From Nostoc sp. CCCryo 231-06 (GTDB taxonomy: Bacteria; Cyanobacteriota; Cyanobacteriia; Cyanobacteriales; Nostocaceae): DNA of 34,168 nucleotides. Shown here one piece after another: positions 392 through 34,168 of this stretch (position 1 is its first letter; each line of letters begins with the position of its first letter). Where the stretch lies: contig JAHCSU010000569.1 of assembly GCA_023522315.1 (NCBI GenBank), positions 1-34,168 of the forward strand, written 5' to 3'. The notes below the pieces were generated by a model. The model searched no databases and was not told the origin of the DNA. It saw only the letters and a list, made by a program, of their open reading frames with translations. The translations under genes were made by a program, and so were the position numbers.

Positions 392-417
392 AACGCTTAT
401 TTGATAATGGTTTCAGC

Positions 418-9508: not shown

Positions 9509-9766
9509 ATGGATACTTTTAAGGCGATGGATATTCTCAAGGCAATACTTGTAGATTTAGGTATTCCTGAAGAATTACTTAATCCAGACTCCTTACTGCA
9601 CAAGGATCTACACATTGACTCTACTGAGACGGTAGAAATTTCCTTAGCACTCAAACGTCAACTGGGAATTAACGTCAAGTTGGAAACCCGTCAAGATAAG
9701 ACACTAACAGAAGTCTGCAATCTGCTTGAAGCAGCCATGTTTACGAGTGCTAAAGGTGTCCCCTGA
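9509..9766 (+). CDS. Free-standing acyl (aryl) carrier protein
   Basis: Starting at ATG 9509 this is an 85-aa carrier protein with the 4'-phosphopantetheine site at S38 in HIDSTETVEI (DST rather than the usual DSL). A TGAGGT Shine-Dalgarno (9493-9498) lies ~10 bp before this ATG, while the earlier ATG at 9452 has none, so the shorter start is preferred. Length and helical pattern (LKAILVDLGIP...) fit the ACP fold. It heads the rightward operon, next to a phosphopantetheinyl transferase, an aryl-activating ligase and salicylate synthase, so it most likely carries salicylate as a thioester for halogenation and delivery to the first Cy domain. In pyochelin and yersiniabactin this role is played by an aryl carrier domain fused to the NRPS; here the NRPS lacks one. 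Confidence 0.85.
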   Translation: MDTFKAMDILKAILVDLGIPEELLNPDSLLHKDLHIDSTETVEISLALKRQLGINVKLETRQDKTLTEVCNLLEAAMFTSAKGVP

Positions 9767-9784
9767 ACAAGGAAAACAACTCGT

Positions 9785-10150
9785 ATGAAGGGGATGGGTA
9801 TTGACATCATACAAATTGATAAAATTGCCAAATTAATCGAGCGAAACGATTGTCAAACCTTGAGTTTGTTATTTAACCACAGCGAGATAAATCGTTGCCA
9901 GTCAGCTAGTAACCCCTATCAATCTTATGCATTATGCTTTGCTACTAAAGAAGCCGTAGGGAAGGCTCTGGGTATAGGATTGGTTGGCATTGATTGGAAT
10001 GAAATTGAAGCAAACATCACTCATGGTAAGTTGAGCATTGATTTACATGGAAAAGCCAGTATCGAGGCAAGAAAACTTGGTATAAGGCAATGGCTGGCTA
10101 CTTGGTCTGATTGGGATGGACACATAATAGTTCACGTTTTTGCTTTATAG
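9785..10150 (+). CDS. AcpS-type phosphopantetheinyl transferase
   Basis: A 121-aa protein of typical AcpS length. It has the N-terminal GIDIIQIDKI motif (D7, Mg2+ ligand) and FATKEAVGKALG (K55, E56, K60), the two signature motifs of the family. AcpS transfers 4'-phosphopantetheine from CoA to carrier-protein serines and works as a trimer with active sites between subunits. Its ATG is 18 bp after the ACP stop with an AAGGAA ribosome site, so it is co-transcribed and probably activates the adjacent ACP and/or the synthetases. Cyanobacteria usually rely on one broad Sfp-type enzyme, so a dedicated AcpS-like enzyme in the cluster is unusual. The C-terminus (WSDWDGHIIVHVFAL) diverges from the common form. 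Confidence 0.85.
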   Translation: MKGMGIDIIQIDKIAKLIERNDCQTLSLLFNHSEINRCQSASNPYQSYALCFATKEAVGKALGIGLVGIDWNEIEANITHGKLSIDLHGKASIEARKLGIRQWLATWSDWDGHIIVHVFAL

Positions 10151-10162
10151 AAGGAAAATTAG

Positions 10163-11701
10163 ATGGCAAATATTGTAGAACAGATCCCCGATATATTTAA
10201 TGTTGCAGCTTATTTCTGGGAAAGTAACTTCACCCAGATATTTAGTGAAAAAGTAGCTTTTTATTATCAAGATAAGACATACACTTACGCTCAAGTCAAA
10301 AGCTTTATCCAGCGCACCGCTAAACTATTAGCCGATTTAGGGCTGGATAGAGAAAATCGCCTAGCTATTCTTTTGCCAGATTCTCCAGAGTTTGTATTCG
10401 TTTTTTGGGCTGCTATCTGGATAGGTGCTGTACCAGTTCCAATTAATACTGCTTGTAGTGTTGACGAAATCCAATATATTCTGCAAGATTCTCGCACCAA
10501 AGTCTTGTTAACTAACCAGGAATTAGAGCAAAGACTAACACCCATCCAATCTCAATTCTTGCGTCAGGTTCTGCTTACTGATGGAGAACACCCATTTCTG
10601 TCGCTACTAAGTCAACATACAGACGAACCACAACCTTATGTCCAAACCTGTCGTGATGAACCAGCTTTCTGGCTTTACACTTCTGGTAGCACAGGTAAGC
10701 CCAAAGGTGTGATTCACCCACATCAAAGTATGGTGGTTTGTGCAGAGCAATATGGTAAAGCTACTCTTGGGTTAGACACAAATGATATTACCTATTCAGT
10801 AGCTAAAATGCCCTTTGCCTATGGTTTGGGGAATACCTTATATATGCCTATGGCAGTTGGTGCTGCTACCGTGCTTTCTGATGCCAAGAATGCTTTTGAT
10901 ATCATCGCTGACATCCAGCGTTATCAACCGACGGTGTTTTTTGGCATCCCCAGTGCCTATGCAAGTATTCTCTCTGTACATAATATTTCTCCTCTAGACG
11001 TATCCTCCCTACGTTTATGTGTATCTGCTGCCGAACAACTACCAAAGAGTATTTGGCACAACTGGTTCCAGACTTACAAACAAGAAATTTGCGAAGGTAT
11101 TGGTACCACAGAGTTTTTGCACATTTTTCTTTCCAACCGCGTTGGAGAGTGTAAACCAGGGACTTCTGGTTATCCTGTTCCTAGTTATCAGGTTGAGATT
11201 GTTGACGACAATGGCTTTCCTTGTCCTCCTGGCCAGATTGGCGATCTCCGAGTAAGTGGAGAGAGTCTGATGCTGGGGTATTGGAATCGACTCCAAAAGA
11301 CGCGAGAAGCTATTTATGGGAAGACTATGCGAACTGGTGATAAATATGTGTGTGATGCTGACGGCTACTTCCGGTTTATGGGCCGTAAAGACGATCTTTT
11401 TAAAGTCAATGGTCAGTGGATATCGCCTTTAGAAATAGAAGATGTCTTACATCAGCATCCTCAGATTTTGGAAGTCGCAGTAGTTCCAGAATCAAATCAG
11501 GGTGAACAGTTAACTCAGATAGTTGCTTATGTAAGTCTCCAGCCGGGACAAGTTCCATCACCTGAATTAGAGAATAGCATTCGGAGATTTACGATACAGA
11601 GATTACCTCATTTTAAAACTCCAAAAACTGTGAAATTTGTGGAGAATTTACCACGAACATCGACTGAGAAAATTCACCGCAAATTATTAGGTAAGAATTA
11701 A
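10163..11701 (+). CDS. Aryl-acid activating enzyme, benzoate-CoA ligase-like (salicylate loading)
   Basis: A 512-aa ANL-superfamily adenylating enzyme. The AMP-binding P-loop YTSGSTGKPKG is at 172-182, and GIGTTEFLHIFLSN at 312-325 is the A5 region in the form typical of benzoate/4-hydroxybenzoate-CoA ligases. RTGDKYV..DGYFRFMGRKDD (hinge) follows, and a C-terminal lysine (K503 in TEKIHR) matches the catalytic A10 lysine. A good AAGGAAA ribosome site precedes the ATG. Directly upstream of salicylate synthase and downstream of an ACP and AcpS, it most likely adenylates salicylate and loads the free ACP. By motif it is closer to benzoate-CoA ligases than to the DhbE/YbtE/PchD salicyl-AMP ligases, so CoA ligase activity or a different benzoic acid is possible. 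Confidence 0.82.
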   Translation: MANIVEQIPDIFNVAAYFWESNFTQIFSEKVAFYYQDKTYTYAQVKSFIQRTAKLLADLGLDRENRLAILLPDSPEFVFVFWAAIWIGAVPVPINTACSVDEIQYILQDSRTKVLLTNQELEQRLTPIQSQFLRQVLLTDGEHPFLSLLSQHTDEPQPYVQTCRDEPAFWLYTSGSTGKPKGVIHPHQSMVVCAEQYGKATLGLDTNDITYSVAKMPFAYGLGNTLYMPMAVGAATVLSDAKNAFDIIADIQRYQPTVFFGIPSAYASILSVHNISPLDVSSLRLCVSAAEQLPKSIWHNWFQTYKQEICEGIGTTEFLHIFLSNRVGECKPGTSGYPVPSYQVEIVDDNGFPCPPGQIGDLRVSGESLMLGYWNRLQKTREAIYGKTMRTGDKYVCDADGYFRFMGRKDDLFKVNGQWISPLEIEDVLHQHPQILEVAVVPESNQGEQLTQIVAYVSLQPGQVPSPELENSIRRFTIQRLPHFKTPKTVKFVENLPRTSTEKIHRKLLGKN

Positions 11702-11752
11702 GCTATGGCTGCTTATATCGACTGTTATAAATGATTATTCAGAGCAAAATAA

Positions 11753-13075
11753 ATGGTAATATCCTTGAAGACTTCCATCAAATATCAAGAAATATTTATA
11801 CCTGGAGAAAGGAATCCCAGTGTTGTTTTACAGAATCTTTTACAAGCTGGGATCTTTTCCCAATATGTAATGTATGGAGGAGAAAATGAAGTACGTATTG
11901 CTGGGAATGAAATAGCAAAAATATCAATAAAGCAAGATTTGATATCATTCAACAGTGTTGGAAAATCACACTCTGAGCCAGTCAGCGATCCCTTTAAACA
12001 AGTAGGTGATTTGTTGGGGTCTTTGTCAATTGAAAATTGGACAGCATATGGTTATATTGGTTTCGACATAGTTCGCTTCTACTCTGCATACTCAAAAGCA
12101 ATTGAGCAGCCATTGTTATATTTCTTGATTCCAGAAACCGAACTGCGTTTAACAGAGGAGGGAGTCTATATCAAAAGTACCAAATCATTAGATCGTATCC
12201 AAAAACTATTGTCTATTGATAGCCAATTGCCAAATTATGTACCAGCCTCCTTAGAAGTTAATTTTGCAGATCGAGAAATTTATCAAAATCGTATTCGTAC
12301 TTTAATTGAGGCGATTCAAAGAGACGAGTTGAATAAAGCGATTATTGCTCGTTCTCTCAAACTGACTGGTGATTTAGATGTATTAGGTACTTATGTAGTT
12401 GGCTGTAAGGCTAATAATTCAGCGCGTTCTTATTGTCTGAGTATTGGAGATGTGCGTGCAGTTGGTTTTAGTCCCGAAATTCTCATGCAAGTATCTGGCG
12501 ATGGGTCGGTTGTGACTAACCCCCTAGCAGGAACCCGACCCCGTAGCGACAGTTTAGAAGAGGATATGCGCCTCAATCATGAACTATTTACTGATGCTAA
12601 AGAGGTGAAAGAGCATTCTCTATCTGTGTGGCTGGCACAAACTGAGATTGCCTCACTTTGTTTACCAGGAAGCGTTCAGGTTTTTAATTTTATGGAGGTT
12701 AAAAAGTATCGGTGTGTACAACACTTATCATCTCGTGTTGGCGGTCAGATTAAGCCAGGGAATACTCTGTGGGATGCTTTAAAAGTATTGTTCCCAGGGA
12801 TTACTGTTTCTGGGATTGATAAAGAAAAAGCCTTAGAATGGATTGACCGTCTAGAAGACGAGCCAAGAGGAATTTATGCTGGTGGTATTGGTTGGGTAGA
12901 CAGCTGTGGTAGAGCAGATTTAGCGATCGCCATTCGCTCAGTTTACCAATACGGTAACGATATATACTTAAATGCCGGTGCTGGCATAGTTGCAGAATCA
13001 GTTCCTGAAAAAGAGTATATGGAATCGGTCAATAAGATGAACACCATGTTGACCAATTTAGTTTTGAACTCTTAG
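11753..13075 (+). CDS. Salicylate synthase (MbtI/Irp9-type chorismate-utilising enzyme)
   Basis: A 440-aa single-domain enzyme of the chorismate-binding family, the size of Irp9/YbtS/MbtI. Visible family motifs: a conserved lysine in LNKAIIARSL, VGFSPEIL, NPLAGTRPR, EVKEHSLSVW, VQHLSSRVGG, LFPGITVSGI, EPRGIYAGGIGW, IRSVYQ and AGAGIVAES with PEKEY. The TVSGI segment follows the salicylate synthase pattern (TASGI) rather than the isochorismate synthase pattern; the usual P of GIPK is D here. Salicylate synthases convert chorismate through isochorismate to salicylate and pyruvate without a separate lyase, and no lyase gene is visible. Its place after an aryl ligase and ACP supports this. Anthranilate synthase is unlikely because there is no glutaminase partner. 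Confidence 0.87.
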   Translation: MVISLKTSIKYQEIFIPGERNPSVVLQNLLQAGIFSQYVMYGGENEVRIAGNEIAKISIKQDLISFNSVGKSHSEPVSDPFKQVGDLLGSLSIENWTAYGYIGFDIVRFYSAYSKAIEQPLLYFLIPETELRLTEEGVYIKSTKSLDRIQKLLSIDSQLPNYVPASLEVNFADREIYQNRIRTLIEAIQRDELNKAIIARSLKLTGDLDVLGTYVVGCKANNSARSYCLSIGDVRAVGFSPEILMQVSGDGSVVTNPLAGTRPRSDSLEEDMRLNHELFTDAKEVKEHSLSVWLAQTEIASLCLPGSVQVFNFMEVKKYRCVQHLSSRVGGQIKPGNTLWDALKVLFPGITVSGIDKEKALEWIDRLEDEPRGIYAGGIGWVDSCGRADLAIAIRSVYQYGNDIYLNAGAGIVAESVPEKEYMESVNKMNTMLTNLVLNS

Positions 13076-13085
13076 GGAAGTCTAA

Positions 13086-13541
13086 ATGTCTCTTAATCAA
13101 GATGGGGGTTTAAAGATTGATCGTAACCCGCCCCAGGAATTACTTACCTCTGAATCAGACAACCCAACTATTATTGGTCATGGGATCGAAATTGTGGAAA
13201 TTAGTTACATCAAAGAACTTGTAGAACAATCACCAAAGCCTTTTGAAATGCAGTATTTTACACTTCGTGAGTGCGACACTGCTAGGTTTGCTGCTCACCG
13301 GATTCAGTACCTCGCCGGTCGTTTTGTCGCTAAAAAAGCAGTATTCACAGCCCTTGGTCAAGGATGGAGTCAAGGTATTTCCTTCATAGATATTGAGGTT
13401 CAACGGCTACCTAGTGGTGCGCCATCAGTAGTACTGTATGGCAAATGCCAAAAAATTGCAGTCACCTTGGGTATTAGTAAGTGGTTACTGAGCATCAGCC
13501 ATACACCTTTCTATGCAATCGCAAGTGCGATCGCCATTTAG
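13086..13541 (+). CDS. AcpS-like protein with substituted active-site residues
   Basis: A 151-aa AcpS-family protein with a ~28-residue N-terminal extension. The fold markers are present: GHGIEIVEISYI (32-42), LAGRFVAKKAVFTALGQG (76-93) and a C-terminal LLSISHTPFYAIASA. Compared with E. coli AcpS, the Mg2+ ligand D9 is E (E35), the key glutamate of the KEA motif (E58) is K (K84) and the following lysine (K62) is T (T88). So catalysis may be lost or altered. It begins 10 bp after the salicylate synthase stop, in the same operon. Possible roles are a regulatory or heterotrimer partner of the intact AcpS encoded upstream, or a decayed paralog; the intact frame and operon position argue against simple decay. 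Confidence 0.75.
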   Translation: MSLNQDGGLKIDRNPPQELLTSESDNPTIIGHGIEIVEISYIKELVEQSPKPFEMQYFTLRECDTARFAAHRIQYLAGRFVAKKAVFTALGQGWSQGISFIDIEVQRLPSGAPSVVLYGKCQKIAVTLGISKWLLSISHTPFYAIASAIAI

Positions 13542-13562
13542 ACATCAAGCAAAATAATTCTC

Positions 13563-15224
13563 ATGAATTACAAAAATAATCAGCAATTTGATGTGATTGT
13601 CCTGGGTTCTGGACTTGCCGGCTCGATTTTAGCAACGATTTTAGCAAAACATAATCTTCGAGTTTTGATGATAGATAAAGGTACTCACCCTCGATTTGCC
13701 ATCGGCGAAGCAATGACTCCTGATACAGATTTGATGATGAGTATTCTCAGCTATCAATATTCTGTTCCAGAAATCGGCCATCTGAGTTCCTTTGACAATA
13801 TTTGTGATCATATATCTCCTTCTGCTTGTGGATTAAAACGCTCTTTTAACTTCATTTACCATCGAGAAGGTAAAAAACAGACTCTACAAGAATGTAACAA
13901 AGTTGGTGTTCATCCTAGCAGCCACTTATTTCGACAAGATATAGACCAATATATGGTAGATGTGGCTGTAAAATATGGAGTTAAACTTTTAGAAAACACG
14001 CAAATTAAAGAATTAAATATCGAAAAATCAGGAGTTAAAATCCACATAGAAACTGGTGAGCATTTTACTGCTAATTATTTAGTTGATGGCAGTGGTTATA
14101 ATTCTCTGCTTAGTAGTAAATTAAATTTGCGAGACAATCCAATCAAGTTTAAAACTCATTCCAGAAGTATTTTTACCCACATGATTGGGGTAAAAAGGTA
14201 TGATGATTGTATTCAAGCAGATAAAAATAGCCCAGAAGAACTCCTCTGGTATCAAGGAACTCTTCATCACGTATTTGATGGCGGTTGGATGTGGGTTATC
14301 CCCTTTAATAATCATCAAAGATCCCATAATCCAATTTGTAGTATAGGAGTCAACTTCGACTGCCGACGCTTCCCTAAAACTGATATATCTCCAGAACAAG
14401 AGTTTCAAGATTTACTTTTCCGTTTCCCTGGTGTTGCTGTTCAGTTTGAAAATGCTAAACCTGTTCGCAATTGGATATCCACGGAACGCCTGCAATATTC
14501 GTCTCATTCATGTATGGGAGAAAGATTTTACCTACTTCCTCATGCTGCGGGATTTATCGATCCGCTTTATTCCTTTGGCTTAGTAAATACTTGTACTATC
14601 ATCATTCCCTTAGCTGCTAGAATCATGAAAGCTATTGGCAAGAATAATTATGCAAAAGAGCATTTCGCTGATATAGAAAGTTTACAACATCAGCTTTTTG
14701 ACTATAATGATAATCTAGTTAACTGTTCGTATATCTCTTTTACTAATTTTAATCTTTGGGATGCCTGGAGACGTGTTTGGTTATTAGGAAGCTTTACACG
14801 TCAGATGAAAGCTGGAATCAAAAAAAGACTCAAGATTGCAGCAGGTAAAGGTGAAGAATTAGCTAACCTAGAAGAGAATAGTTTAGATAGTTTAACTCCT
14901 AGTTATCAAGGATTAGGTGATAATTTTTTCTCAAAAGCAACTGCAACAATTGAAAATGTCCAGGCAGGTTTACTATCTGCGGACGAGGCTGCAATTCAGA
15001 TAATGTCTTTGATTAAGTCGATTGATTTTCTCCCGCCGAATTTTTGGAATTTGGCAGATAGCTCCCAAAAACATATAGATACTGAATCTGATTTTTGTAG
15101 AACCGAATACTCACGTTTTTTATCTTGGATTAAAAAATCTCACAAACCAGAAGTGAAAAAGTATTTTGACTACGACGTACAAGATTTGGTAGCTGCCATC
15201 GGGTTAGCTACAGCTAATAAGTAA
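13563..15224 (+). CDS. Flavin-dependent halogenase 1 (tryptophan-halogenase superfamily)
   Basis: A 553-aa FAD-dependent protein. The nucleotide-binding GSGLAG (15-20) fits GxGxxG. WMWVIP (242-247) is the WxWxIP signature of flavin-dependent halogenases, and FIDPLYSFG (331-339) is the Fx.Px.Sx.G motif. K92 (CGLKRSF) is a candidate for the lysine that forms the active halogenating species. The family uses reduced FAD from a separate reductase, O2 and halide to halogenate electron-rich aromatic rings. The likely substrate is the phenol ring of salicylate, free or on the ACP. The gene is between the AcpS-like gene and the KSIII-ACP gene and has a diverged copy on the other side of the latter (halogenase 2). 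It is ~60 aa longer than that copy at the C-terminus. Halide identity and ring position cannot be read from sequence by eye. Confidence 0.85.
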   Translation: MNYKNNQQFDVIVLGSGLAGSILATILAKHNLRVLMIDKGTHPRFAIGEAMTPDTDLMMSILSYQYSVPEIGHLSSFDNICDHISPSACGLKRSFNFIYHREGKKQTLQECNKVGVHPSSHLFRQDIDQYMVDVAVKYGVKLLENTQIKELNIEKSGVKIHIETGEHFTANYLVDGSGYNSLLSSKLNLRDNPIKFKTHSRSIFTHMIGVKRYDDCIQADKNSPEELLWYQGTLHHVFDGGWMWVIPFNNHQRSHNPICSIGVNFDCRRFPKTDISPEQEFQDLLFRFPGVAVQFENAKPVRNWISTERLQYSSHSCMGERFYLLPHAAGFIDPLYSFGLVNTCTIIIPLAARIMKAIGKNNYAKEHFADIESLQHQLFDYNDNLVNCSYISFTNFNLWDAWRRVWLLGSFTRQMKAGIKKRLKIAAGKGEELANLEENSLDSLTPSYQGLGDNFFSKATATIENVQAGLLSADEAAIQIMSLIKSIDFLPPNFWNLADSSQKHIDTESDFCRTEYSRFLSWIKKSHKPEVKKYFDYDVQDLVAAIGLATANK

Positions 15225-15241
15225 GGAAATTCAAAAAAGTA

Positions 15242-16726
15242 GTGATTACGATTAGTCATCCGATAGGGATTCGCTCACTGGGAGTAAGCTTTCCCAGCAT
15301 CATACGGACAAACAATCCTGATTTGATTGCTCAGACTCCCCCTAGACGAGCAAGGTTATCTCACTCTCATGAACTTGACATCTGGTCACAGGAAGTAGCA
15401 CCGTATCTATCAGATCCTTTTCGGGGTAATGTAGAGCGGCGGGTACTTGGCCCGGACGAATCATCGCTGATGCTAGAGTATCAAGCTGCTCAGGATGCCC
15501 TTGATGCTGCAAAACTTTCACCTGAGGAAATCGATTTAGCGATCGTGGCATCGCTCTTTCCTGAACAAATCATACATGGCAATGCTGTTGATCTTGCACG
15601 TGAACTAAAACTGCTTTGTCCCGCCTGGAATTTGGAATCGACCTGCTCAAGTGCTTTGATAGCACTGCAAAACGCCTGTGCGCTAATCCAGGCTGGAATA
15701 TATCGCAGGATACTAGTTATTACCTCGCACATTGGGTCTAACTCAGTCGATGAAGAAGATACTCTCTCTCGGTCTATGGGTGATGCAGCAGGAGCCTTTG
15801 TGGTCGATTCTCTGAAAGCGAATCAGGGTATTCTTGGGATGAAAATCATTAATACTGCCGTTACGGCTGGTGCTTACTTACATGAATTAGTAACAGACGA
15901 CCAGGGTAAACCTCGAATGTCCACTCGGACGGGGGAAAATGCTAGTATGCTCGCCGAAACAGCTGTAGATTTCGTCCGTACCTGCTGCAAAGAAGCTGTT
16001 GCATCTGCTGGTGTAACCCTGGATAAAATTGATTTTTTTGGCTTCAATACTCCTACACCTTGGTATGCCAACGTCTGTACCAGAGCATTGGGTATTAACC
16101 CTGAACGCACCATTAATCTCTACCCTCGATACGCTAACATCGGCCCAGTATTTCCCATTGCCAATTTGTACCATGCAGCCCTTGCAGGACAAATTCGTGA
16201 AAATGATTTAGTCCTCATTTATACCAACGGAGCAGGAGCTACTGCTGGGGCAATGGTCATGCGCTGGGGTGATGTAGCCATCGGGTCAGTTCCTACCGCA
16301 CCGATTAGCGTAACTCCAGAGCAAGAGAAAGTTTATTTAGATACACAAGCAAGTGTAAGACCCATTTCTATCTCAAAAGAGGGTTTCTCACAAATAGAAC
16401 TCCTTGCTGTCCAAGCAGAAAAACGACGGCAGATATTAGAAACTTATTTGATGCAAATACTTAGTGAATTACTAAAACTTCCTAGCAGTAAAATCAATAA
16501 TCAGCAATCGTTTACCTACTTAATTGATTCATTAATAGCCTTGGAACTCAGAAGAAGAATTGATTCTGACTTAGAGTTATTAGTGCCAATGGAAAAATTT
16601 TTCAAAAATAGCAGCATTGCTAAAATGGCTGATTTATTGATGGAGAAGTTAGCGATCGCATCACTAAATATACCCCAATCTTTGTCTCCTGAAATAGGGG
16701 AAAATATCGAAGAAATTACACTTTAA
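15242..16726 (+). CDS. Ketosynthase III-like protein fused to a C-terminal carrier domain
   Basis: A 494-aa fusion starting at GTG, with AAGGAA overlapping the previous stop. Residues 1-345 form a KAS III (FabH-like) thiolase fold: active-site Cys C135 in LESTCSSALIAL, and the GAGATAGAMVMRW end. The position of the FabH catalytic histidine (HQAN) reads FNTPTPW, so His is N269, while the second Asn appears kept (N299 in YANIG). Residues ~390-475 are a carrier domain with the phosphopantetheine serine S430 in YLIDSLIALEL. KSIII-like proteins in secondary metabolism start chains or act as acyltransferases. Between two halogenases and before the NRPS, it could move a (halogenated) salicyl group between carriers or add a unit to it. 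The His change argues against ordinary malonyl decarboxylation. Confident on architecture, not on reaction. Confidence 0.82.
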   Translation: MITISHPIGIRSLGVSFPSIIRTNNPDLIAQTPPRRARLSHSHELDIWSQEVAPYLSDPFRGNVERRVLGPDESSLMLEYQAAQDALDAAKLSPEEIDLAIVASLFPEQIIHGNAVDLARELKLLCPAWNLESTCSSALIALQNACALIQAGIYRRILVITSHIGSNSVDEEDTLSRSMGDAAGAFVVDSLKANQGILGMKIINTAVTAGAYLHELVTDDQGKPRMSTRTGENASMLAETAVDFVRTCCKEAVASAGVTLDKIDFFGFNTPTPWYANVCTRALGINPERTINLYPRYANIGPVFPIANLYHAALAGQIRENDLVLIYTNGAGATAGAMVMRWGDVAIGSVPTAPISVTPEQEKVYLDTQASVRPISISKEGFSQIELLAVQAEKRRQILETYLMQILSELLKLPSSKINNQQSFTYLIDSLIALELRRRIDSDLELLVPMEKFFKNSSIAKMADLLMEKLAIASLNIPQSLSPEIGENIEEITL

Positions 16727-16730
16727 AACT

Positions 16731-18209
16731 ATGGAAAATTCCACCAAGCAATTCGATGTTATCATTTTAGGCTCTGGGATTAGCGGCTCTACTTTAGCTA
16801 CCATTTTAGCAAAACACCAAGTTAGAGTTTTGATTATCGATAAAGGAACTCATCCTAGATTTGCCATTGGTGAGGCACTTACTTCTCATACAGAGAAATT
16901 ATTTTCACTTTTGAGTCATCAATATGGCATTCCTGAATTCGATCACCTAAGTTCCTTCCACAAAATAAATAAACATCTTAAAAATTGTGGTTGTGGCTAT
17001 AAGCGATCTTTCGGATTCCTTTATCATCAAGAAGGAAAAGAACAATTACCACAAGAAAGGATTCAATGGGGAACTGGTCATGACAGCCATTTATTTCGTC
17101 AAGAAATAGATCATTATCTTCTGAAAACAGCGAACAATTATGGAGCTAAATTCCTATGTGAAACAACTGTTAGCGATATAAAGATAGATGCAAGCAAAGT
17201 TGAGGTTAAGCTCGAAAGTGGTGAACAATTTACTGCTGATTATTTGGTTGATGCTAGCGGCTACAATTCTATCCTCGCTGAAAAACTTAATTTAAGAGAA
17301 AAACCAACTCGCTTTAAGACTCATTCTAGAAGTATTTTTACTCACATGATCGGAGTAAAAAATACTGATGATTGTCTCAAAGAAACTAATGCGAATATAA
17401 TGCCTTTTTATCAAGGAACTGTTCATCATATTTTTGATGGCGGTTGGATGTGGGTTATTCCGTTTAATAATCATGAAAACTCAAGCAATCCCATTTGCAG
17501 CGTCGGACTAAATCTCGATCCTCGGCGTTTTCCTAAAAATAATAATCTGTCTCCCGATCAGGAGTTTAAACATTTTATCTCACTATTTCCAAGCATTCCC
17601 CTTCAGTTTGAAAATGCAAAACCTGTTCGTAACTGGGTAGCAACAGATCGGCTGCAATATTCATCTTCTTCATGTGTGGGAGAAAGATTTTATATTCTTC
17701 CTCATGCTACAGGAGCTATTGATGCTATTTTTTCTGTGGGAGTAGCACAGACTTTTATAACTATTAGTCCGCTAGCAGCATTGATTTTGAAAGCTATTGC
17801 TAACAAAGACTTTACGACCAAAAACTTTGCTTCTCTTGGGCGTTTACAACAAGACATTTTTGACTACAACGACAAAATAGCAAATTGTACCTACATTTCT
17901 TTTAGGAACTTTAATTTAATGAATGCATGGCTACGGGTTTGGCTATTGCAACACATGATGAGTGTTGCCAAACTGTCATCTACAAGGCTTCTTGGGTTAG
18001 CTCTAGAAACCCACAAGGGATACAAGGATAGGGATTGGTCGAGATTTACTAATATTGATTATTTAAAAGACATAGATCCTCGCACTGAAGGATGGGGCAA
18101 CAGTTACGTACAAAAAGCTATTTTAGAAGTTGAAAAAGTAGAACAAAACTTGCTCTCTGCCGATGAAGCAGCTATTAACATTATTTCATTGCTCAATTCA
18201 ACTAGTTAG
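16731..18209 (+). CDS. Flavin-dependent halogenase-like protein 2, diverged motif
   Basis: A 492-aa paralog of the halogenase encoded upstream, similar over its length. GSGISG (14-19), the candidate catalytic lysine K91 (CGYKRSF) and WMWVIP (239-244) are all kept. The Fx.Px.Sx.G position reads AIDAIFSVG (329-337): F and P are both replaced by Ala, while S and G remain. That motif lines the tunnel between FAD and the substrate site in this family, so the enzyme may work on another substrate or position, have monooxygenase-like behaviour, or be a non-halogenating partner. Its ATG is 4 bp after the KSIII-ACP stop, so co-expression is near certain. The shared sequence points to a duplication that left the KSIII gene between the two copies. 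Confidence 0.8.
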   Translation: MENSTKQFDVIILGSGISGSTLATILAKHQVRVLIIDKGTHPRFAIGEALTSHTEKLFSLLSHQYGIPEFDHLSSFHKINKHLKNCGCGYKRSFGFLYHQEGKEQLPQERIQWGTGHDSHLFRQEIDHYLLKTANNYGAKFLCETTVSDIKIDASKVEVKLESGEQFTADYLVDASGYNSILAEKLNLREKPTRFKTHSRSIFTHMIGVKNTDDCLKETNANIMPFYQGTVHHIFDGGWMWVIPFNNHENSSNPICSVGLNLDPRRFPKNNNLSPDQEFKHFISLFPSIPLQFENAKPVRNWVATDRLQYSSSSCVGERFYILPHATGAIDAIFSVGVAQTFITISPLAALILKAIANKDFTTKNFASLGRLQQDIFDYNDKIANCTYISFRNFNLMNAWLRVWLLQHMMSVAKLSSTRLLGLALETHKGYKDRDWSRFTNIDYLKDIDPRTEGWGNSYVQKAILEVEKVEQNLLSADEAAINIISLLNSTS

Positions 18210-18531
18210 CTATTTAGATCATGTGGATTGCTAGATACTGAACAACGGTTTATGGATATATTAAACTCGAAAAAATTCAGTATGAGCTTTATGGCTTTTT
18301 CATTTTGGAGCCAAATATTCTTGAAAAAGGAAGTAAGACCTTATTATTTTAAATTCAAGGATTTTGTAGATGCAACTCGTTGGAAAGTTGAGATTTAATA
18401 AATTAGCTTAAATATTTTGCCCTTAAACATTACAAATATGATGATGTAGATGAATATCTAGGGGCAATAGAGGGAAAAAGTTGTGGGAATAGTTGACACA
18501 AAAATCCTACTAAATTTGAGGAACATATATT
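18210..18531 (+). other. Gap between halogenase 2 and first NRPS
   Basis: 322 AT-rich bases inside the operon, the longest gap on this strand. A 48-codon frame (18252-18398, ATG, no clear ribosome site) encodes a basic/aromatic peptide with no recognised domain, and a second short open stretch (about 18402-18496) ends KYDDVDEYLG...GNS. Both look like remnants rather than genes. The end carries the GAGGA ribosome site (18518-18522) that supports the GTG start of the NRPS. No promoter recognised. Confidence 0.5.
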
Positions 18532-22011: not shown

Positions 22012-22097
22012 ATCTAGCTTGATCTTGGAGGCGAAACCAGCACAGATTAAATAGGATTTCTATACATAGAAACTAATAAAATTACAGAAAAAAAGCT

Positions 22098-27059: not shown

Positions 27060-30000
27060 TAGTCAAGTTCAGGATGTCGTCTCTAATTCTCAAAGTGAAA
27101 ACTTTTATTTAAGTATTTCTCAGCCTGGTACATTAGATAATCTAGAATTAAAATCAACGAATCGCCGAAATCCAGATGTAGGCGAAGTAGAAATTGCAGT
27201 TGGCGCTACTGGACTTAACTTTAAAGAAGTGCTGATTGCACTAGGGTTAATTCCTTTGCCACCTAATTTAAATGTAAAATTTGGGTTAGAGTGTGCAGGA
27301 AAAATAGTAGCTATTGGTGAAGGCGTTGGCAATTTTAAAATAGGAGATGAAGTTATTGTTTTTGGCAATTCCTGTTTAAGCAAATTCATTACAACCTCTG
27401 TGAATTTAGTAACACTAAAACCAGAACATCTCAGTTTAGAGGAGTCGGCGACAATTCCAGTTGCTTTTATGACAGCTTATTATGCTTTAGTAAAATTGGG
27501 TAGACTGAGTAAAGGCGAAAAAATTCTGATTCATTCAGCCTCTGGTGGTGTGGGGTTGGCTGCTGTGCAAATTGCCCAATGGATAGGAGCAGAAATTTTA
27601 GCTACTGCTGGCAATTCAGAAAAGCAGGAATTTTTGCGATCGCTGGGTATTAAACACGTCATGAATTCTCGGTCGTTAGAGTTTGCCAAAGAGGTGATGA
27701 AACACACTGAAGGTAGAGGTGTAGATGTAGTTTTAAACTCATTAGGAGGAGAATTTATCCCTAAAAGTTTAGCAACTCTAGCTCCATATGGACGCTTTTT
27801 AGAACTAGGTCGACGAGATATTCTTAATAACAACCAATTGGCTTTACTACCTTTTGAAAAAAACTTATCATTCTTTGCTGTTAATGTAGAAGCAGAACAT
27901 CCTCATTTTAGAGAAATATGGCAGGAAATATTACTACATTTTCAAGAGTGTAATTTTAGTCCTCTGCCTCATAAAGTATTTCCTGTTGAGTCTGTATTCA
28001 GTGCTTTTGAATATATGTCAGAAGCCAAACATATTGGCAAAATAGTCATATCTTTACAAGATAAAGAGACAATAGCTCAAAAACCAACTTTCCCTAGAAA
28101 TATCAGTCAACCAGACTTTTTACAAGCAGGATTATTACCCTCAGAAGGTGTAGATATCTTTAGCCAAATTTTGGGGAGTACCTTATCGCAAGTTTTGGTA
28201 TCAACCCGTGATTTTCTGACCCAGTATGTGCCAAAAAATCCATCTATAGGCATAGTTGCTGATGAGGTTACATCAAAACAAATACATCCACGACCTGAAC
28301 TGGATAATCCTTATGTTCCTTCGAGAAATGCTGTGGAGCAAAAGATTATCAACATCTGGCAAGAATATTTGGGGATAGAATCTATAGGTATTAATGATGA
28401 TTTCTTTGAATTAGGAGGACATTCTCTACTAGCTACTCGACTGGTATCTAAACTAAGTGCTGTTTTTGGCGTGGAATTACTTTTAGGGCAATTATTTGAG
28501 TTTTCCACTGTGGCTAGTTTAGCCGAAGTAATCAGCACACAAGCAACTCAAAATACATCTCTACCTGCGATCTTATCGGATCGAGAACAGCGTTATCAAC
28601 CCTTTCCCTTAACTGATGTTCAACAAGCTTATTGGATTGGTCGTAGTAGTGATTTAGAGTTAGGAAATGTTTCAACTCACTTCTATGGAGAAATTGATAG
28701 TTTTGATCTAGATATTGAGCGATACAATCTAGCTTGGCAACGGGTAATTGAGCGCCATGAAATGCTACGAGCAATTGTACGTCCTGATGGACAGCAACAA
28801 ATTCTACAGCAAGTACCTGCTTTTGAAATCAAAGTTCAAGACCTCCGAGGAAAAAATCAAGAAGAAGTATCTGGTGAATTAGAGAAAATACGCTTACGCT
28901 TGTCTCACCAAGTTATACCTAGCGACCAATGGCCCTTGTATGAAATTTGTGCATCTTTGTTAGATCGAGGACGGGTGCGAATTCACATCAGTTTCGATGC
29001 TTTGATTGCAGATTTGCAGAGTATTGAAGTTATCTTACAAGAGCTTTTTGATTTTTATCAAAATCCTGATATTGTCCTGAAAAAAACGGAAATTTCCTTC
29101 CGAGACTATGTTTTAGCCTTAGATACTCTGCCAAACTATGAAATATACCAACGTTCTTTAGATTATTGGCTAAGTCGGATTCCCCAGCTACCACCTGCGC
29201 CAGAATTACCACTGGCGAAGAATTTAGCTTCCCTCAGCCAATCTCGGTTCAAACGTCGCACTTACAAACTAGCGCCAGAAATTTGGGGGCAACTAAAGCA
29301 TCGGGTTAGCCGTGCTAATTTGACTCCTTCGGGACTGTTGATAGCCGCTTTTGCCGAAATCCTGACCATTTGGAGCAAGCGATCGCAATTTATCCTGAAT
29401 TTAACACTGTTCAATCGTCTACCTCTGCATTCTGAAGTTGACGAAATAGTAGGAGATTTCACTTCCTTAACTCTGTTAGCAGTCGATAACTCACAACCTC
29501 AACCCTTTGAAGTTCGCGCCCAACGTCTGCAAAAGCAGCTATGGGAAGATTTAGATCATAGTTATGTGAGTGGAGTACAAGTACTGCGAGAGTGGAGCAA
29601 AATCCAAGGGGGTGATACCATACTGATGCCCGTGGTATTCACCAGCAACCTGGGACAAAAAGAAATAACGTCATCATCAGCACTTAGCAAGTTTGGTGAG
29701 TTGGTTTATAGTGTCAGCCAGACTCCCCAAGTTGTATTAGACCATCAAGTTTATGAGGATGGCGGAACGCTAATTTTAACCTGGGATACTGTAGATGAGG
29801 TTTTCCCTGAAGGGATGCTTGATGATATGTTTGAGGCTTACTGCGATTTCCTCAAATGTCTGGCTACCGAAGAAGAAAGTTGGCAGAACACTAAACGGCA
29901 AATTACTATTCCAGCACAAACAACTTATGCAACTGAAGCTTCAATCCCCGAAGGATTGCTTCATACTAAGTTTGCCACCCAGGTGCGTCAACAACCAAAT

Positions 30001-32556
30001 CAACTTGCTTTAGTAACTTCTCAGCGCACCCTCAGTTACCAAGATTTATCTCGTCTCGTCAATCAAGTTGGTCATAGGCTGCGAAATTTCGGAGCAATTC
30101 CTAATCAGTTAATCGCTGTGGTGATGGAAAAAGGCTGGGAACAAGTTGTAGCAGTTTTGGGGATTCTCGCTGCTGGAGCCGCATATTTACCCATTGACCC
30201 AGATTTACCACCAGAACGGATTGCTTATCTGTTAACAAATAGTCAAGCCTCTGTGGTACTTACTCAGTCTTGGTTGAGTGAGACATTGGAGTTACCCACA
30301 GGGATTGAAAAAATTTGCGTTGATACCACAGAACTAGCAAATGAGTGTGACGAGGCTTTAGAGTCTGTGCAAAATCCAGAAGATTTGGCTTACGTCATTT
30401 ATACCTCTGGTTCAACTGGCTTACCCAAAGGTGTGATGATTGACCATCAGGGCGCACTTAACACAATTATTGATATTAACCAGCGTTTCCAAATTGGTGC
30501 TGAAGACAGAGTATTAGCGGTTTCATCTTTAAGTTTTGACCTTTCTGTTTATGACATTTTTGGTACATTAGCGGCGGGAGGTACAATTGTTATTCCCGAT
30601 GCGATCGCTGCTAAAGATCCCGCACATTGGGCAGAATTAATTGTGCGCGATCGCATTACTATTTGGAACTCTGTACCCGCTTTGATGCAGCTATTCCTTA
30701 ACTATGTTGCAGAGAAACCAGAACTTCATCCCCAAACTTTGCGGTTAGTGCTGTTGAGTGGTGATTGGCTACCCCTTGATTTACCTCCTCGCATGAAGGC
30801 TTTAGTAACAGGTATTGAGGTCATAAGTTTGGGTGGTGCAACAGAAGCATCTATCTGGTCAATTCTTTATCCCATTGCAGACATCAACCCAGAATGGAAA
30901 AGCATTCCCTACGGACGCGCGATGCAAAACCAGCGTTTTTACGTCTTCAATGAGATGTTGGAACCTTGTCCGGTGTGGGTGACGGGACAATTATATATTG
31001 CTGGCATAGGGCTGGCTCAAGGCTATTGGCGAAATGAAGAAAAAACTAATGCTAGCTTTTTTACCCATCCAGAAACAGGCGATCGCCTTTATCGTACAGG
31101 CGACTTGGGGCGCTATCTTCCTGACGGCAATATTGAATTTTTGGGGCGAGAGGATTTTCAACTCAAAATTCGGGGATATCGCATTGAAGCTGGGGAAATT
31201 GAAGCCGCTTTAATCCAACATCCCCAAGTCCGTACCGCCGTTGTAGCAGATTGGGAACAAGAGCCAGGAAATCAACAGTTAGTTGCTTATGTAGTTCCTG
31301 AAAATTCCTTGAATTCCGTCAAACAAATTGATTGTTTAGCTGCTAAACAATCAGAAAATTTAATATTTGACCCCGTAGAAAGGTTGGAATTTAGACTTAA
31401 GCAATCAGGATTAAGAAAGGTAGAATCAGAGCAAGCTTTCGTCCAACTACCACTACCATATTTTGATAAAAATCGTTTAAAAGCATATATTAAACGCCAA
31501 AGTTATCGACAATTTGTTTTTGAGACTATTTCTTTAGAAAATTTCGTTGCGCTTTTAAACTGTTTGTTACCAGTTAAGCTAGATAGTTCTCCTTTACCAA
31601 AATACCGCTATGCTTCAGCCGGACATCTCTATCCAGTTCAAACATATTTGTATATCAAAACAGGAAGAATTGCTGGATTAGAAGCTGGCACTTATTATTA
31701 TGATTCTGCCAACCACCGTTTGATATTACTTTCAGCCGATGCTCAGATTGAAAGTAGCCTTTATAGTGAAACCAATCAACAGATTTTTGAGCAATCAGCC
31801 TTCGCTCTGTTTTTAATTGGTCAACTAAATGCTATTACTCCCATGTATGGAGAATTAGCTAAAGAATTTTGCTTTTTGGAAGCTGGTTACATCAGCCAAC
31901 TGCTGATGACTGAAGCTCCTGAACATAAAATAGGGTTGTGTCCTATCGGCGGCGATATGGATTTTACAGCCATACAAAATTTATTTTTGTTGGAATCAAG
32001 TCATATCTTGTTACACAGTTTTCTCGGTGGTCAAGTCAATGAAAACCAAACACTTCAATGGCTGCAAACAGAATTAAATGGTGGGGCAGAAAATATTGAG
32101 CAGCAGTTACGTAGTTTCTTAAAACAAAAGTTGCCTGAGTATATGCAGCCTGCTGTTTATTTGACTTTAGAACATCTTCCATTAACAGCTAATGGTAAAA
32201 TCAACCGCAAGGCACTTCCCACACCTAATTTCATCAAAATCAAGCCAGAAAAAAGTTATATTGCCCCACGTACCGAACAAGAGCAAATGTTAGCTAAAAT
32301 CTGGGCAGATATTTTCAAGTTGGACAAAATTGGCATTTACGATAACTTTTTTGAGCTAGGGGGAAACTCTTTACAAGCAACTCAAATTTTGACCCAAATA
32401 CGCCAAAAGCTACCAATATTAGAACTTAGTCTGCGCCAGCTTTTAGCAGCAGCAACAATTGCAGACTTAGCTGTAATTGTTGAAAATAACTTAATAGAAA
32501 AAATAGCAGATTTGAATGAAGAAGAGACTCAATACCTGCTGGGAAATATCAACTAA
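27046..32556 (+). CDS. Hybrid PKS/NRPS: ER - ACP - Cy - A(Cys)[Ox inserted] - PCP
   Basis: 1836 aa. ER (about 20-335) shows the NADPH motif LIHSASGGVG (161-170). Carrier 1 has S460 (ELGGHSLLAT). Cy (about 515-945) has D651, D656, S659 (DxxxxDxxS). The A domain (from ~970) has YTSGSTGLPKG and pocket residues D1165, L1166, Y1169, N1208, L1236, S1238, L1262, I1270, W1271 = DLYNLSLIW, cysteine. Between A8 (RGYRIEAGEIE, 1376) and A9 (LPEYMQP, 1696) sits a ~245-residue oxidase domain (about 1435-1680) of the McbC/SagB FMN type (RYASAGHLYPVQTYLY), placed as in EpoB, which oxidises thiazoline to thiazole. A10 is NGKINRKALP. PCP 2 has S1775. The acidic tail DLNEEETQYLL looks like a docking element. 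A GAGGAAG ribosome site lies within the PKS end. Expected step: complete reduction of the ketide, then a second Cys as thiazole. Confidence 0.92.
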   Translation: MKTNNSQVQDVVSNSQSENFYLSISQPGTLDNLELKSTNRRNPDVGEVEIAVGATGLNFKEVLIALGLIPLPPNLNVKFGLECAGKIVAIGEGVGNFKIGDEVIVFGNSCLSKFITTSVNLVTLKPEHLSLEESATIPVAFMTAYYALVKLGRLSKGEKILIHSASGGVGLAAVQIAQWIGAEILATAGNSEKQEFLRSLGIKHVMNSRSLEFAKEVMKHTEGRGVDVVLNSLGGEFIPKSLATLAPYGRFLELGRRDILNNNQLALLPFEKNLSFFAVNVEAEHPHFREIWQEILLHFQECNFSPLPHKVFPVESVFSAFEYMSEAKHIGKIVISLQDKETIAQKPTFPRNISQPDFLQAGLLPSEGVDIFSQILGSTLSQVLVSTRDFLTQYVPKNPSIGIVADEVTSKQIHPRPELDNPYVPSRNAVEQKIINIWQEYLGIESIGINDDFFELGGHSLLATRLVSKLSAVFGVELLLGQLFEFSTVASLAEVISTQATQNTSLPAILSDREQRYQPFPLTDVQQAYWIGRSSDLELGNVSTHFYGEIDSFDLDIERYNLAWQRVIERHEMLRAIVRPDGQQQILQQVPAFEIKVQDLRGKNQEEVSGELEKIRLRLSHQVIPSDQWPLYEICASLLDRGRVRIHISFDALIADLQSIEVILQELFDFYQNPDIVLKKTEISFRDYVLALDTLPNYEIYQRSLDYWLSRIPQLPPAPELPLAKNLASLSQSRFKRRTYKLAPEIWGQLKHRVSRANLTPSGLLIAAFAEILTIWSKRSQFILNLTLFNRLPLHSEVDEIVGDFTSLTLLAVDNSQPQPFEVRAQRLQKQLWEDLDHSYVSGVQVLREWSKIQGGDTILMPVVFTSNLGQKEITSSSALSKFGELVYSVSQTPQVVLDHQVYEDGGTLILTWDTVDEVFPEGMLDDMFEAYCDFLKCLATEEESWQNTKRQITIPAQTTYATEASIPEGLLHTKFATQVRQQPNQLALVTSQRTLSYQDLSRLVNQVGHRLRNFGAIPNQLIAVVMEKGWEQVVAVLGILAAGAAYLPIDPDLPPERIAYLLTNSQASVVLTQSWLSETLELPTGIEKICVDTTELANECDEALESVQNPEDLAYVIYTSGSTGLPKGVMIDHQGALNTIIDINQRFQIGAEDRVLAVSSLSFDLSVYDIFGTLAAGGTIVIPDAIAAKDPAHWAELIVRDRITIWNSVPALMQLFLNYVAEKPELHPQTLRLVLLSGDWLPLDLPPRMKALVTGIEVISLGGATEASIWSILYPIADINPEWKSIPYGRAMQNQRFYVFNEMLEPCPVWVTGQLYIAGIGLAQGYWRNEEKTNASFFTHPETGDRLYRTGDLGRYLPDGNIEFLGREDFQLKIRGYRIEAGEIEAALIQHPQVRTAVVADWEQEPGNQQLVAYVVPENSLNSVKQIDCLAAKQSENLIFDPVERLEFRLKQSGLRKVESEQAFVQLPLPYFDKNRLKAYIKRQSYRQFVFETISLENFVALLNCLLPVKLDSSPLPKYRYASAGHLYPVQTYLYIKTGRIAGLEAGTYYYDSANHRLILLSADAQIESSLYSETNQQIFEQSAFALFLIGQLNAITPMYGELAKEFCFLEAGYISQLLMTEAPEHKIGLCPIGGDMDFTAIQNLFLLESSHILLHSFLGGQVNENQTLQWLQTELNGGAENIEQQLRSFLKQKLPEYMQPAVYLTLEHLPLTANGKINRKALPTPNFIKIKPEKSYIAPRTEQEQMLAKIWADIFKLDKIGIYDNFFELGGNSLQATQILTQIRQKLPILELSLRQLLAAATIADLAVIVENNLIEKIADLNEEETQYLLGNIN

Positions 32557-32578
32557 TTATTAATATGGAAGGATCAAA

Positions 32579-34168
32579 ATGATAGAAGAAAATAGAATTT
32601 CTGCTCTACGTTCCCAACTTTCCCCATCAAAACAGCAGCTACTAGCAAAGCTGTTACAGGGTAAAACTCAGCAAACATCAGAATCAGATACCCTGCATTC
32701 CCTACCGAAAATTGTCCCCAACCCAGAAGGGCGCTATCAACCTTTTCCTCTCACCGAGATGCAACAGGCTTATTGGCTCGGTAGAAATGATGTGTTTGAT
32801 TTGGGTAATGTGTCCATGCACCATTATCTAGAACTGGATGCCGCCGATTTAGACATAGAACAATTTAATCGCGCCTGGAATCGACTCATTCAGCATCATG
32901 ACATGATGCGTGCCATTGTGCTGCCAAATGGTCAACAGCAGATTTTGGCAGAAGTACCGCTTTATGAAATTCAAGTATTGGATCTGCAGGAGCAACACGA
33001 ACGGACTATTAGTTCTAAATTGCAAGTTATTCGCGATCGCCTTTCCCATCAAGTTTTACCTCTAGACCAGTGGCCGCAGTTTGAGATTGTCGCTACACAA
33101 TTTAGCGATCGCCATTTCCGACTACATATCAGTTTAGATGGCTGGTGCATCGACTATTGGAGTAGTGTCAAGCTGTTTCAAGACTTATCTCAACTCTACA
33201 ACGAGCCTAACCAGCCCTTACCTAATTTAGAAATTTCATTCCGAGATTATGTTCTCGCCACACTCGCCCTCAAAGATAGCCCCAGCTATCAGAGTTCTCT
33301 AGATTACTGGCTACGCCGTATCCCCACACTGCCGCCAGCACCAGAATTGCCCTTAGCAAACAATCCTAATTCCATCATCAACCCTCACTTTAAACGCTTA
33401 CAATCCACATTAGAGCCGCAAACTTGGCAACAACTTAAGCAGCGAGGTTCTCAAGTCAATTTGACCGCCACAGGTATCTTACTTGCTGCCTATGCCGAGA
33501 TTCTCACCCTTTGGAGTAAGCACCCCAAATTTACTATCAATGTACCTTCCTTCAACCGTCTGCCTTTTCATCCTCAAGTCAACGAAATCATCGGGGAATG
33601 CGCTTCATTTACCCTGCTAGAAATAGATAATTCCCGACAGGAATCTTTTGCAGTCCGCGCCCAGCAGATGCAAACACAGCTATGGAACGACTTAGAACAT
33701 GAATTGGTGAGTGGAGTGCGAGTACTGCGCGAATGGACTAAAGCTCAAGAAAAAGCTTCCAGAGCAGGTACTATGCCCATCGTATTTACTCACGGGCCAC
33801 AAGCAGATGAGAACAATCCTTTATCGATAAATTTTATTGAACAGCAGACAGAAATTGTTTATGGCATTTCTCAAACACCGCAAGTTTGGATAGACAATCA
33901 ATACGCTGTGAAATCTGATGGCACTTTGGCATTCAATTGGGACTTTGTAGCAGAACTCTTTCCCCAAGACATGGTAGAAGATATGTTTGACACCTACTGT
34001 CATCTGCTCACACGTCTGGCACATGAAGAAAAAGCATGGCAACAGACAACACTAGAATTATTGCCACCCGCACAATTAGCACAAAGAACAAGCATTAACG
34101 CCACCACTGGCCCGATTTCAACTGAGTTACTACACACTTTATTTATTAACCAAGTACCACAGCGACCA
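32579..34168 (+). CDS. NRPS starting with Cy domain, truncated by window end
   Basis: The frame is open from ATG 32579 (AAGGA ribosome site, 22 bp after the previous stop) to the last base, 530 codons. A short helical N-terminus (SPSKQQLLAKLL) precedes a heterocyclisation domain from ~residue 58 (RYQPFPLTEMQQAYWLGR) with DGWCIDYWS as the DxxxxDxxS signature. The last visible residues (LLHTLFINQVPQRP) are the beginning of an adenylation domain. So at least one more Cys, Ser or Thr is expected to be added and cyclised. Amino-acid specificity, later domains and chain release are beyond the window. Confidence 0.88.
   Translation, partial: MIEENRISALRSQLSPSKQQLLAKLLQGKTQQTSESDTLHSLPKIVPNPEGRYQPFPLTEMQQAYWLGRNDVFDLGNVSMHHYLELDAADLDIEQFNRAWNRLIQHHDMMRAIVLPNGQQQILAEVPLYEIQVLDLQEQHERTISSKLQVIRDRLSHQVLPLDQWPQFEIVATQFSDRHFRLHISLDGWCIDYWSSVKLFQDLSQLYNEPNQPLPNLEISFRDYVLATLALKDSPSYQSSLDYWLRRIPTLPPAPELPLANNPNSIINPHFKRLQSTLEPQTWQQLKQRGSQVNLTATGILLAAYAEILTLWSKHPKFTINVPSFNRLPFHPQVNEIIGECASFTLLEIDNSRQESFAVRAQQMQTQLWNDLEHELVSGVRVLREWTKAQEKASRAGTMPIVFTHGPQADENNPLSINFIEQQTEIVYGISQTPQVWIDNQYAVKSDGTLAFNWDFVAELFPQDMVEDMFDTYCHLLTRLAHEEKAWQQTTLELLPPAQLAQRTSINATTGPISTELLHTLFINQVPQRP

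Follow-up and report, generated by a model that had tools for sequence, protein, structure and literature searches.

Phenolate metallophores are a recent discovery in cyanobacteria, and fatuamide A, from a Leptolyngbya sp., was counted as the third compound of this type reported from a cyanobacterium (PMC11877528). As described in the main text of that paper, the fatuamide A cluster begins with an acyl carrier protein (ACP; FatB), a phosphopantetheinyl transferase (PPTase; FatC), a ligase of the benzoate-CoA-ligase (BCL) type (FatD) and a salicylate synthase (FatE), and continues with an AcpS (FatF), a 1524-nt KSIII gene (FatG), long enough for a fused ACP, and a Cy-A(Cys)-P module (FatH); FatG is named there once, in a table, with no role assigned. 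The lusichelin assembly line of Lusitaniella coriacea is described as passing from salicylate through a Cy-A-T module, a polyketide synthase (PKS) with KR and DH, a cysteine module with an oxidase and a Cy with a cMT, and then through a reducing PKS to a Cy-A that carries cMT and TE; a methyl ester is ascribed to an LCM methyltransferase, LusM (PMC12210259). The leptochelins of Leptothoe are summarized as complex phenolate-type metallophores in which a thiazoline or oxazoline bears a unit derived from salicylate (PMC11877528). Here we analyzed one entire contig of Nostoc sp. CCCryo 231-06 (C523; 34,168 bp, G+C 40%), hereafter the window. Judging from its gene and domain content, it very probably holds the left-hand portion of a cluster that is under Fur control and directs the synthesis of a thiazoline/thiazole metallophore with a halogenated salicyl cap, related to lusichelin and fatuamide and carried by a Nostoc-type host. 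Compared through the published descriptions of fatuamide and lusichelin, the cluster looks like an unreported relative of these recent cyanobacterial metallophores and not like a new class.

Genes, domains, motifs and specificity codes were read from the sequence, as were the operator-like site and the neighbours of related loci. From left to right, the window carries transposase remnants and a minus-strand block, in which an ABC pair and an LCM methyltransferase precede a TonB receptor; a divergent control region separates these from the plus-strand biosynthetic genes, in the order ACP, AcpS1, BCL-type ligase, salicylate synthase, AcpS2, Hal1, KSIII-ACP, Hal2, NRPS1, PKS, NRPS2 and NRPS3 (NRPS, non-ribosomal peptide synthetase). 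The salicylate synthase, AMP ligase and carrier protein seen in fatuamide- and lusichelin-type clusters are all present. The free ACP (9452..9766; PF00550, E 1.2e-4) is the counterpart of FatB; from a later in-frame ATG, the alternative start at 9509, its size would be near the 249 nt of FatB. It is followed by an AcpS-type PPTase (9785..10150; PF01648, E 1.3e-11), a BCL-type AMP ligase predicted to activate salicylate (10163..11701; TIGR02262, 472 bits, cut-off 375), the nearest structures of which are anthranilate- and benzoate-CoA ligases, a salicylate synthase (11753..13075; TIGR03494, E 6e-95; best solved matches MbtI and Irp9) and a second AcpS-type PPTase (13086..13541; PF01648, E 8e-9; TIGR00516 above cut-off). 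The starter cassette thus has the order reported for FatB to FatH, and the window adds Hal1 and Hal2, which flank the KSIII-ACP gene.

What sets the window apart is the presence of two PltM/CtcP-type halogenases of separate subfamilies inside the salicyl cassette. Hal1 (13563..15224, plus strand), an FAD-dependent phenol halogenase of subfamily A, matched the solved structures of tetracycline 7-halogenase (E 3.5e-124) and PltM (2e-104), and PltA at just 2e-18. Hal2 (16731..18209, plus strand), of subfamily B, matched tetracycline 7-halogenase with an E of 2.8e-111, and its structure matches parallel those of Hal1 across the first 410 residues; ChlB4 and PltA are far weaker matches than tetracycline 7-halogenase and PltM. 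FAD-dependent phenol halogenases of the PltM/tetracycline 7-halogenase type carry the motifs GxGxxG and WxWxIP and an active-site lysine, and both window proteins have GxGxxG, WxWxI(P) and the lysine motif. Tetracycline 7-halogenase and PltM act on free substrates, and PltA on a carrier-bound one.

In a halogenase tree of 19 rows, the cluster halogenases formed one group of 13 rows (support 100/99), which splits into clade A, with Hal1 (5 rows, 100/99), and clade B, with Hal2 (8 rows, 100/100). These 13 rows represent 10 genomes, nine of which have a salicylate synthase within the sequence fetched; in G350 it is ~40 kb from the halogenase and on the opposite strand, and the tenth genome, G003, contributes a 5-kb contig. 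A recent tandem duplication was considered and rejected: Hal1 and Hal2 share 54%, versus 67-73% between Hal1 and its orthologs elsewhere and 59-67% for Hal2, and the tree separates them. Among 217 family genomes, 16 (own included) gave a halogenase match at 1e-60, and no other exceeds 52% identity to Hal1. An alignment scan of named genomes with KSIII-ACP returned 44 loci, some of which share a genome; a salicylate synthase was found in the fetched stretch of 28 and was accompanied by a halogenase of the window type in six. These are Acaryochloris IP29b_bin.176 and Symploca SIO2E9 (both halogenases), UBA11371 (Hal1), Pleurocapsales LEGE 06147 (Hal1, in pieces), and Nostocales LEGE 11386 and Nodularia LCM1.Bin15 (Hal2). 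The locus suggests that a halogenating version of the salicyl cassette occurs in a Nostoc-type host, and cassettes with no, one or two halogenases across cyanobacteria offer a natural series on ring halogenation versus metal choice. As a separate observation, contig C365 of the same assembly carries a third halogenase of the superfamily (L261, ~35.5-37.0 kb; 40% to Hal1), and a stretch 27% similar to salicylate synthase lies ~11 kb from it.

Hal2 ends early at an in-frame TAG (18207-18209), and lacks ~60 C-terminal residues. The stop and the coding stretch behind it span 18207-18395. A search with just the 62 amino acids encoded past the stop recovered the C-terminal ends of the longer homologs from LEGE 11386 and Nodularia (56-58%, E ~1e-24) and, less closely, those of G003, G350, G483 and Acaryochloris (39-53%, E 3e-14 to 3e-9). 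The Hal2 of Symploca SIO2E9 is likewise short (a 481-amino acid frame), so the C-terminus may be dispensable. The window strain may rely on Hal1 alone.

The gene between the two halogenases codes for a KSIII with a fused C-terminal ACP (15242..16726, plus strand; PF08545/PF08541/PF00550), a predicted salicyl transacylase. Condensing KSIII enzymes of the FabH type use a Cys-His-Asn triad. Cys135 and Asn299 are invariant in 34 of 34 relatives. At the position of the FabH histidine, 33 of the 34 have Asn, and Thr-Pro comes next in all 34. The column richest in histidine (His311) reaches 28 of 34, and no His is invariant. A structure model (mean predicted local distance difference test score, pLDDT, 81) confirms a KSIII fold, for which PqsBC, FabH and PqsD are about equally good matches, and the active site is argued here from the sequence; the title of one PqsD structure describes a covalent anthranilate complex. 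From these features KSIII-ACP may shuttle salicyl as a transacylase. A partial precedent is ChlB3 of chlorothricin biosynthesis, described as a KSIII-like acyltransferase that moves 6-methylsalicyl from a carrier to the free ACP ChlB2 and uses Cys-His-Asp (PMC9573744); since the window family lacks an invariant His, its active site differs from that of ChlB3 as described there. We put forward, as a tentative and rather doubtful extension, that KSIII-ACP could be a new starter gate: it would transfer salicyl without condensation from the free ACP to its fused ACP, ring halogenation would be completed on the first carrier before the line is fed, and the two halogenase subfamilies would set different positions, so that the halogenases present in a given cluster would decide whether the cap carries one halogen or two and would thereby adjust metal binding. 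The locus thus draws attention to an enzyme that the fatuamide main text leaves without a role.

Cassettes of this kind are not confined to the window. KSIII matches at 1e-20 were found in 59 of 291 genomes drawn from the class; 16 besides our own are of the cluster type (at least 52% identity), and 10 of these 16 carry a salicylate synthase in the fetched neighbourhood. The initial annotation, which anticipated a salicylate-started, cysteine-heterocyclising and probably halogenated metallophore with a Fur-type site and yersiniabactin-type import, was sound in this respect; it also took the free ACP, the BCL-like loader and KSIII-ACP as distinctive, and that part is not supported, because fatuamide, as published, has the same gene order and similar cassettes recur in other cyanobacteria. 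Seven KSIII relatives from Nostoc, Hydrococcus and myxobacteria (L130, L132-L134, L136, L141 and L144) match only up to the ACP, and six of the seven have a weakly BCL-like ligase (25-32%) in the same stretch. The Acaryochloris cluster (L107) has an extra partial KSIII copy containing stops, beside the intact KSIII and both halogenases.

The assembly line proper was delimited by domain and motif scans on the plus strand. NRPS1 (18532..22011) comprises a TubC docking domain, Cy, A and PCP, and is predicted to form the first thiazoline. Both A domains of the window have the code DLYNLSLIW, a code for cysteine, and on this reading NRPS1 holds the first Cy-A(Cys)-PCP module typical of fatuamide- and lusichelin-type clusters. 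The PKS (22098..27059) is KS-AT-KR-DH, with the AT motifs GHSIG and HAFH, presumably of malonyl type. NRPS2 (27046..32556) is ER-ACP-Cy-A-oxidase-PCP, with the ER motif GGVG at its start, and would supply a reduced C2 unit and then a thiazole; the oxidase insert, of nitroreductase fold (PF00881, E 1.8e-11), lies past the A-domain core and is what predicts the thiazole. NRPS3 (32579..34168; PF00668, E 3e-33) is cut by the right end of the contig inside the third Cy domain, with its first 530 residues present. The DxxxxDxxS motif is found in all three Cy domains. Hence the predicted beginning of the product is (halo)salicyl-thiazoline-CH2CH2-thiazole-ring. One PKS module is split between two genes at the DH/ER boundary. 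A frameshift is an unlikely cause, as Argonema antarcticum shares this gene boundary; DH and ER are within a single frame in UBA11371, G189, G483 and UBA2566.

All genes listed in the initial annotation were recovered by domain and family scans. The two halogenase-like genes have their motifs, although the premature TAG in Hal2 had been missed, and motif and code reading bore out the three Cy-containing NRPS parts with two DLYNLSLIW domains. The PKS module is fully reducing as proposed, since KR, DH and ER motifs were all found, with the qualification that ER-ACP sits on the next protein. The TonB receptor and ABC pair exist, and, like the Fur-type site, they lie to the left of position 9509, outside the region to which they had been assigned. 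Besides the Hal2 TAG, the features missing from the initial annotation are the oxidase insert in NRPS2, the pair of AcpS-type PPTases and the gene for the LCM methyltransferase.

When the line is set against lusichelin as published (PMC12210259), the two have in common a salicylate synthase, an AMP ligase, an LCM methyltransferase and TonB and ABC genes, as well as a Cy-A-T module, a reducing PKS, a cysteine-oxidase module and further Cys/Cy modules. The module order matches as far as the third Cy of the window, where the contig ends. The two differ in that LusR is described with KR and DH, no ER and an olefin link, whereas the first PKS unit of the window adds ER-ACP, and in that the lusichelin cluster has an AraC regulator, no gene for which was seen among the scanned window proteins. 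The main text on lusichelin does not contain 'halogen', and 'chlor' is limited to one reference title. Compared with fatuamide A (PMC11877528), the line diverges after the first thiazoline: fatuamide has two cMT-bearing reducing PKS modules there, and the window instead one PKS without cMT followed by the cysteine-oxidase module. Further along, fatuamide uses PKS modules, some of which contain cMT, together with NRPS modules for Phe and Gly; its cluster table has no oxidase module, and 'halogen' is absent from the main text. Overall, as far as the published descriptions go, the window combines a starter cassette like that of fatuamide with an assembly line whose order follows that of lusichelin up to the third Cy, apart from the additional ER.

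The UBA2566 cluster has the lusichelin layout (Cy-A-PCP, KS-AT-KR-ACP-Cy-A-Ox-PCP, Cy-A-cMT-PCP, KS-AT-KR-DH-ER-ACP and Cy-A-cMT-PCP-TE, plus LCM and AraC genes), but its first PKS has KR and lacks DH, and the code of its first A domain is DMYNTGVLW. The window's third Cy, in NRPS3, shares 63% identity with the corresponding third Cy here, the highest value among the stretches compared. Nostocales LEGE 11386 and Nodularia LCM1.Bin15 have the same cassette with a Hal2-type halogenase, a salicylate synthase at 84%, receptor homologs at 42-43% and an ABC pair at 64-69%, and in each of them three of the four A domains have the code DLYNLSLIW; they differ from the window in having a single halogenase. 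LEGE 11386, the one of the two that was scanned, differs further in that its first PKS contains a cMT and its line ends in a reductase domain. The yersiniabactin system (Irp9, YbtPQ, pesticin receptor) is alike in the sequence of the salicylate synthase, importer pair and receptor, and shares the Cy-A(Cys) chemistry; the window differs from yersiniabactin in the BCL-type loader with free ACP and KSIII-ACP, the halogenases, the oxidase domain and a different PKS.

The minus-strand genes support a role in metal uptake. The TonB-dependent receptor (5824..8823; PF11741, PF07715, PF00593), with N-terminal AMIN domains, is pesticin-receptor-like: that receptor, presumably FyuA, is its best solved-structure match (E 3.4e-43, residues 347-998, most of the barrel; runner-up 3e-20). 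The ABC half-transporters are YbtQ-like (1094..2836; YbtQ 345 bits, MsbA 320, YbtQ partner chain 319) and YbtP-like (2833..4593; YbtQ partner chain 349 bits, YbtQ 307, the mycobactin importer IrtA 297), so that among half-transporter structures YbtQ and its partner chain, which we take to be YbtP, are the best matches of the pair. Uptake genes of both kinds are expected of fatuamide- and lusichelin-type clusters, and published fatuamide A likewise has TonB and ABC genes (PMC11877528). The LCM-type methyltransferase (4880..5686, minus strand; PF04072, E 1.5e-11) is 63-64% identical to its UBA11371 counterpart and 53% to that of UBA2566; by analogy it may be of the same kind as LusM, for which formation of a terminal methyl ester is proposed. 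Between the divergent arms lies a Fur-type operator, TGATAATAATTATCA, a 7-1-7 palindrome (8967..8981) with no mismatch to TGATAATNATTATCA, the only such site in the window, which vindicates the perfect Fur box first reported. Ten sites with at most three mismatches were counted, versus 3.9 expected (0 of 100 shuffles reach 10), and six of the ten fall in the divergent control region. Fur-type sites with one or two mismatches are found near ACP, TonB or LCM genes in LEGE 06147, LEGE 11386, Nodularia, UBA11371, Hyella, UBA11370 and others.

These data are consistent with the following model, in which the chemistry, the acyl shuttle, the identity and position of the halogen and the metal are predicted. 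Salicylate synthase would convert chorismate to salicylate, and the BCL-type ligase would activate it and load the free ACP. The ring would be chlorinated or brominated by one or both of the phenol halogenases, with either the free acid or the carrier-bound form as substrate. KSIII-ACP would then take over the (halo)salicyl group held by the free ACP, using its own ACP as acceptor, and pass it to NRPS1, where cysteine would be added and the thiazoline closed. The PKS with ER-ACP would build a fully reduced two-carbon link, NRPS2 would add, cyclise and oxidise a second cysteine to a thiazole, and NRPS3 would begin a third ring. The LCM methyltransferase may make a terminal methyl ester, as proposed for LusM, and the receptor and YbtPQ-like ABC pair would re-import the metal complex.

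Several observations weigh against this interpretation. The salicylate synthase scores 318.6 bits, slightly under the TIGR03494 cut-off of 325.15; full-length eukaryotic B-family exporters outscore YbtPQ for the ABC proteins (up to 431 for the YbtQ-like and 434 for the YbtP-like protein); many relatives have no Fur-type site at two or fewer mismatches among the scanned ACP, TonB and LCM starts; and the premature TAG in Hal2 makes double halogenation doubtful. Moreover, the rightward extension that had been suggested came to nothing: the contig end is reached, and a continuation module of the same type was not found in the own assembly when it was searched for the condensation family and queried with the first A domain of the window and the terminal module of UBA2566. 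The best A domains outside the window match its first A domain at 45% over full length, 49% over half and 60-66% over short pieces. The cluster could therefore be a truncated remnant. It is quite unlikely, in our view, that it is decaying or truncated to the point of yielding no finished product in this strain, with intact versions in relatives. The Hal2 TAG, the transposase remnants at the left edge and the lack of a downstream module in an assembly rated 99% complete would fit such decay, but the remaining cluster genes are open, the C-terminus of Hal2 may be dispensable, given the short Hal2 of Symploca SIO2E9, and the break falls near an A-domain start, where an assembly is apt to stop; contigs C330 and C246 of UBA11371 also begin inside such an A domain.

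The proposal of a halogenated salicyl metallophore also has to be weighed against the leptochelins, which, as described, resemble it in the phenolate type, the salicylate unit on a thiazoline or oxazoline and the halogen pattern: a leptochelin-matched ion of m/z 895.08 has a Cl and/or Br isotope pattern, and its partner at 851.13 was tentatively ascribed to Cl-Br exchange. The window could then represent leptochelin biosynthesis itself, or an allelic version of that cluster in a different host, making the same, already published product. We consider this unlikely, since the host is a Nostoc-like cyanobacterium, placed in one genus group with Desmonostoc geniculatum HA4340-LM1 and Nostoc LEGE 12450 and in one family with LEGE 11386 and Nodularia LCM1.Bin15, not a Leptothoe, and no Leptothoe locus is among the 44 named KSIII relatives, although the producer genomes may lie outside the set scanned. 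No description of a leptochelin gene cluster was found in the parts consulted of the literature naming leptochelin, and the main text of a Leptothoe genome paper (PMC8225149) has no mention of siderophore, halogenase, thiazol or yersiniabactin. The literature search gave no halogenated cyanobacterial salicyl metallophore cluster; on target were the fatuamide and lusichelin papers only. It is possible, if somewhat doubtful, that the phenol halogenases work late in the pathway, once the phenolic chain is complete, or that the product is chiefly cytotoxic or antibiotic and not a metal scavenger. The closest structures are those of enzymes acting on free substrates, with PltA and ChlB4 far weaker, and leptochelin is described as cytotoxic; on the other side, the halogenase genes lie within the starter cassette in all three double-halogenase clusters seen (window, Acaryochloris, Symploca), and the Fur-type site and metallophore-type transport genes favour metal uptake.

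The source assembly has 7.08 Mb in 720 contigs, with 2% contamination. A 16S fragment on contig C223 is 93% identical to Nostoc CHAB 5844 and 88-91% to eight others (matches in 9 of 28 named genomes). The only 16S matches of this genome (L161-L164) are in pieces and divergent, which is odd for the assigned genus; they may reflect a contaminant or a chimera. At the left edge of the cluster contig, the transposase remnants (window 2-865) are of the Tn3 type and DDE_5. Contig C215 had been considered as a right-hand piece on account of low-scoring condensation domains, and was discarded, as it looks like an unrelated PKS/NRPS locus; this hybrid locus (L010-L011) has first genes that by eye look like polyunsaturated fatty acid synthases.

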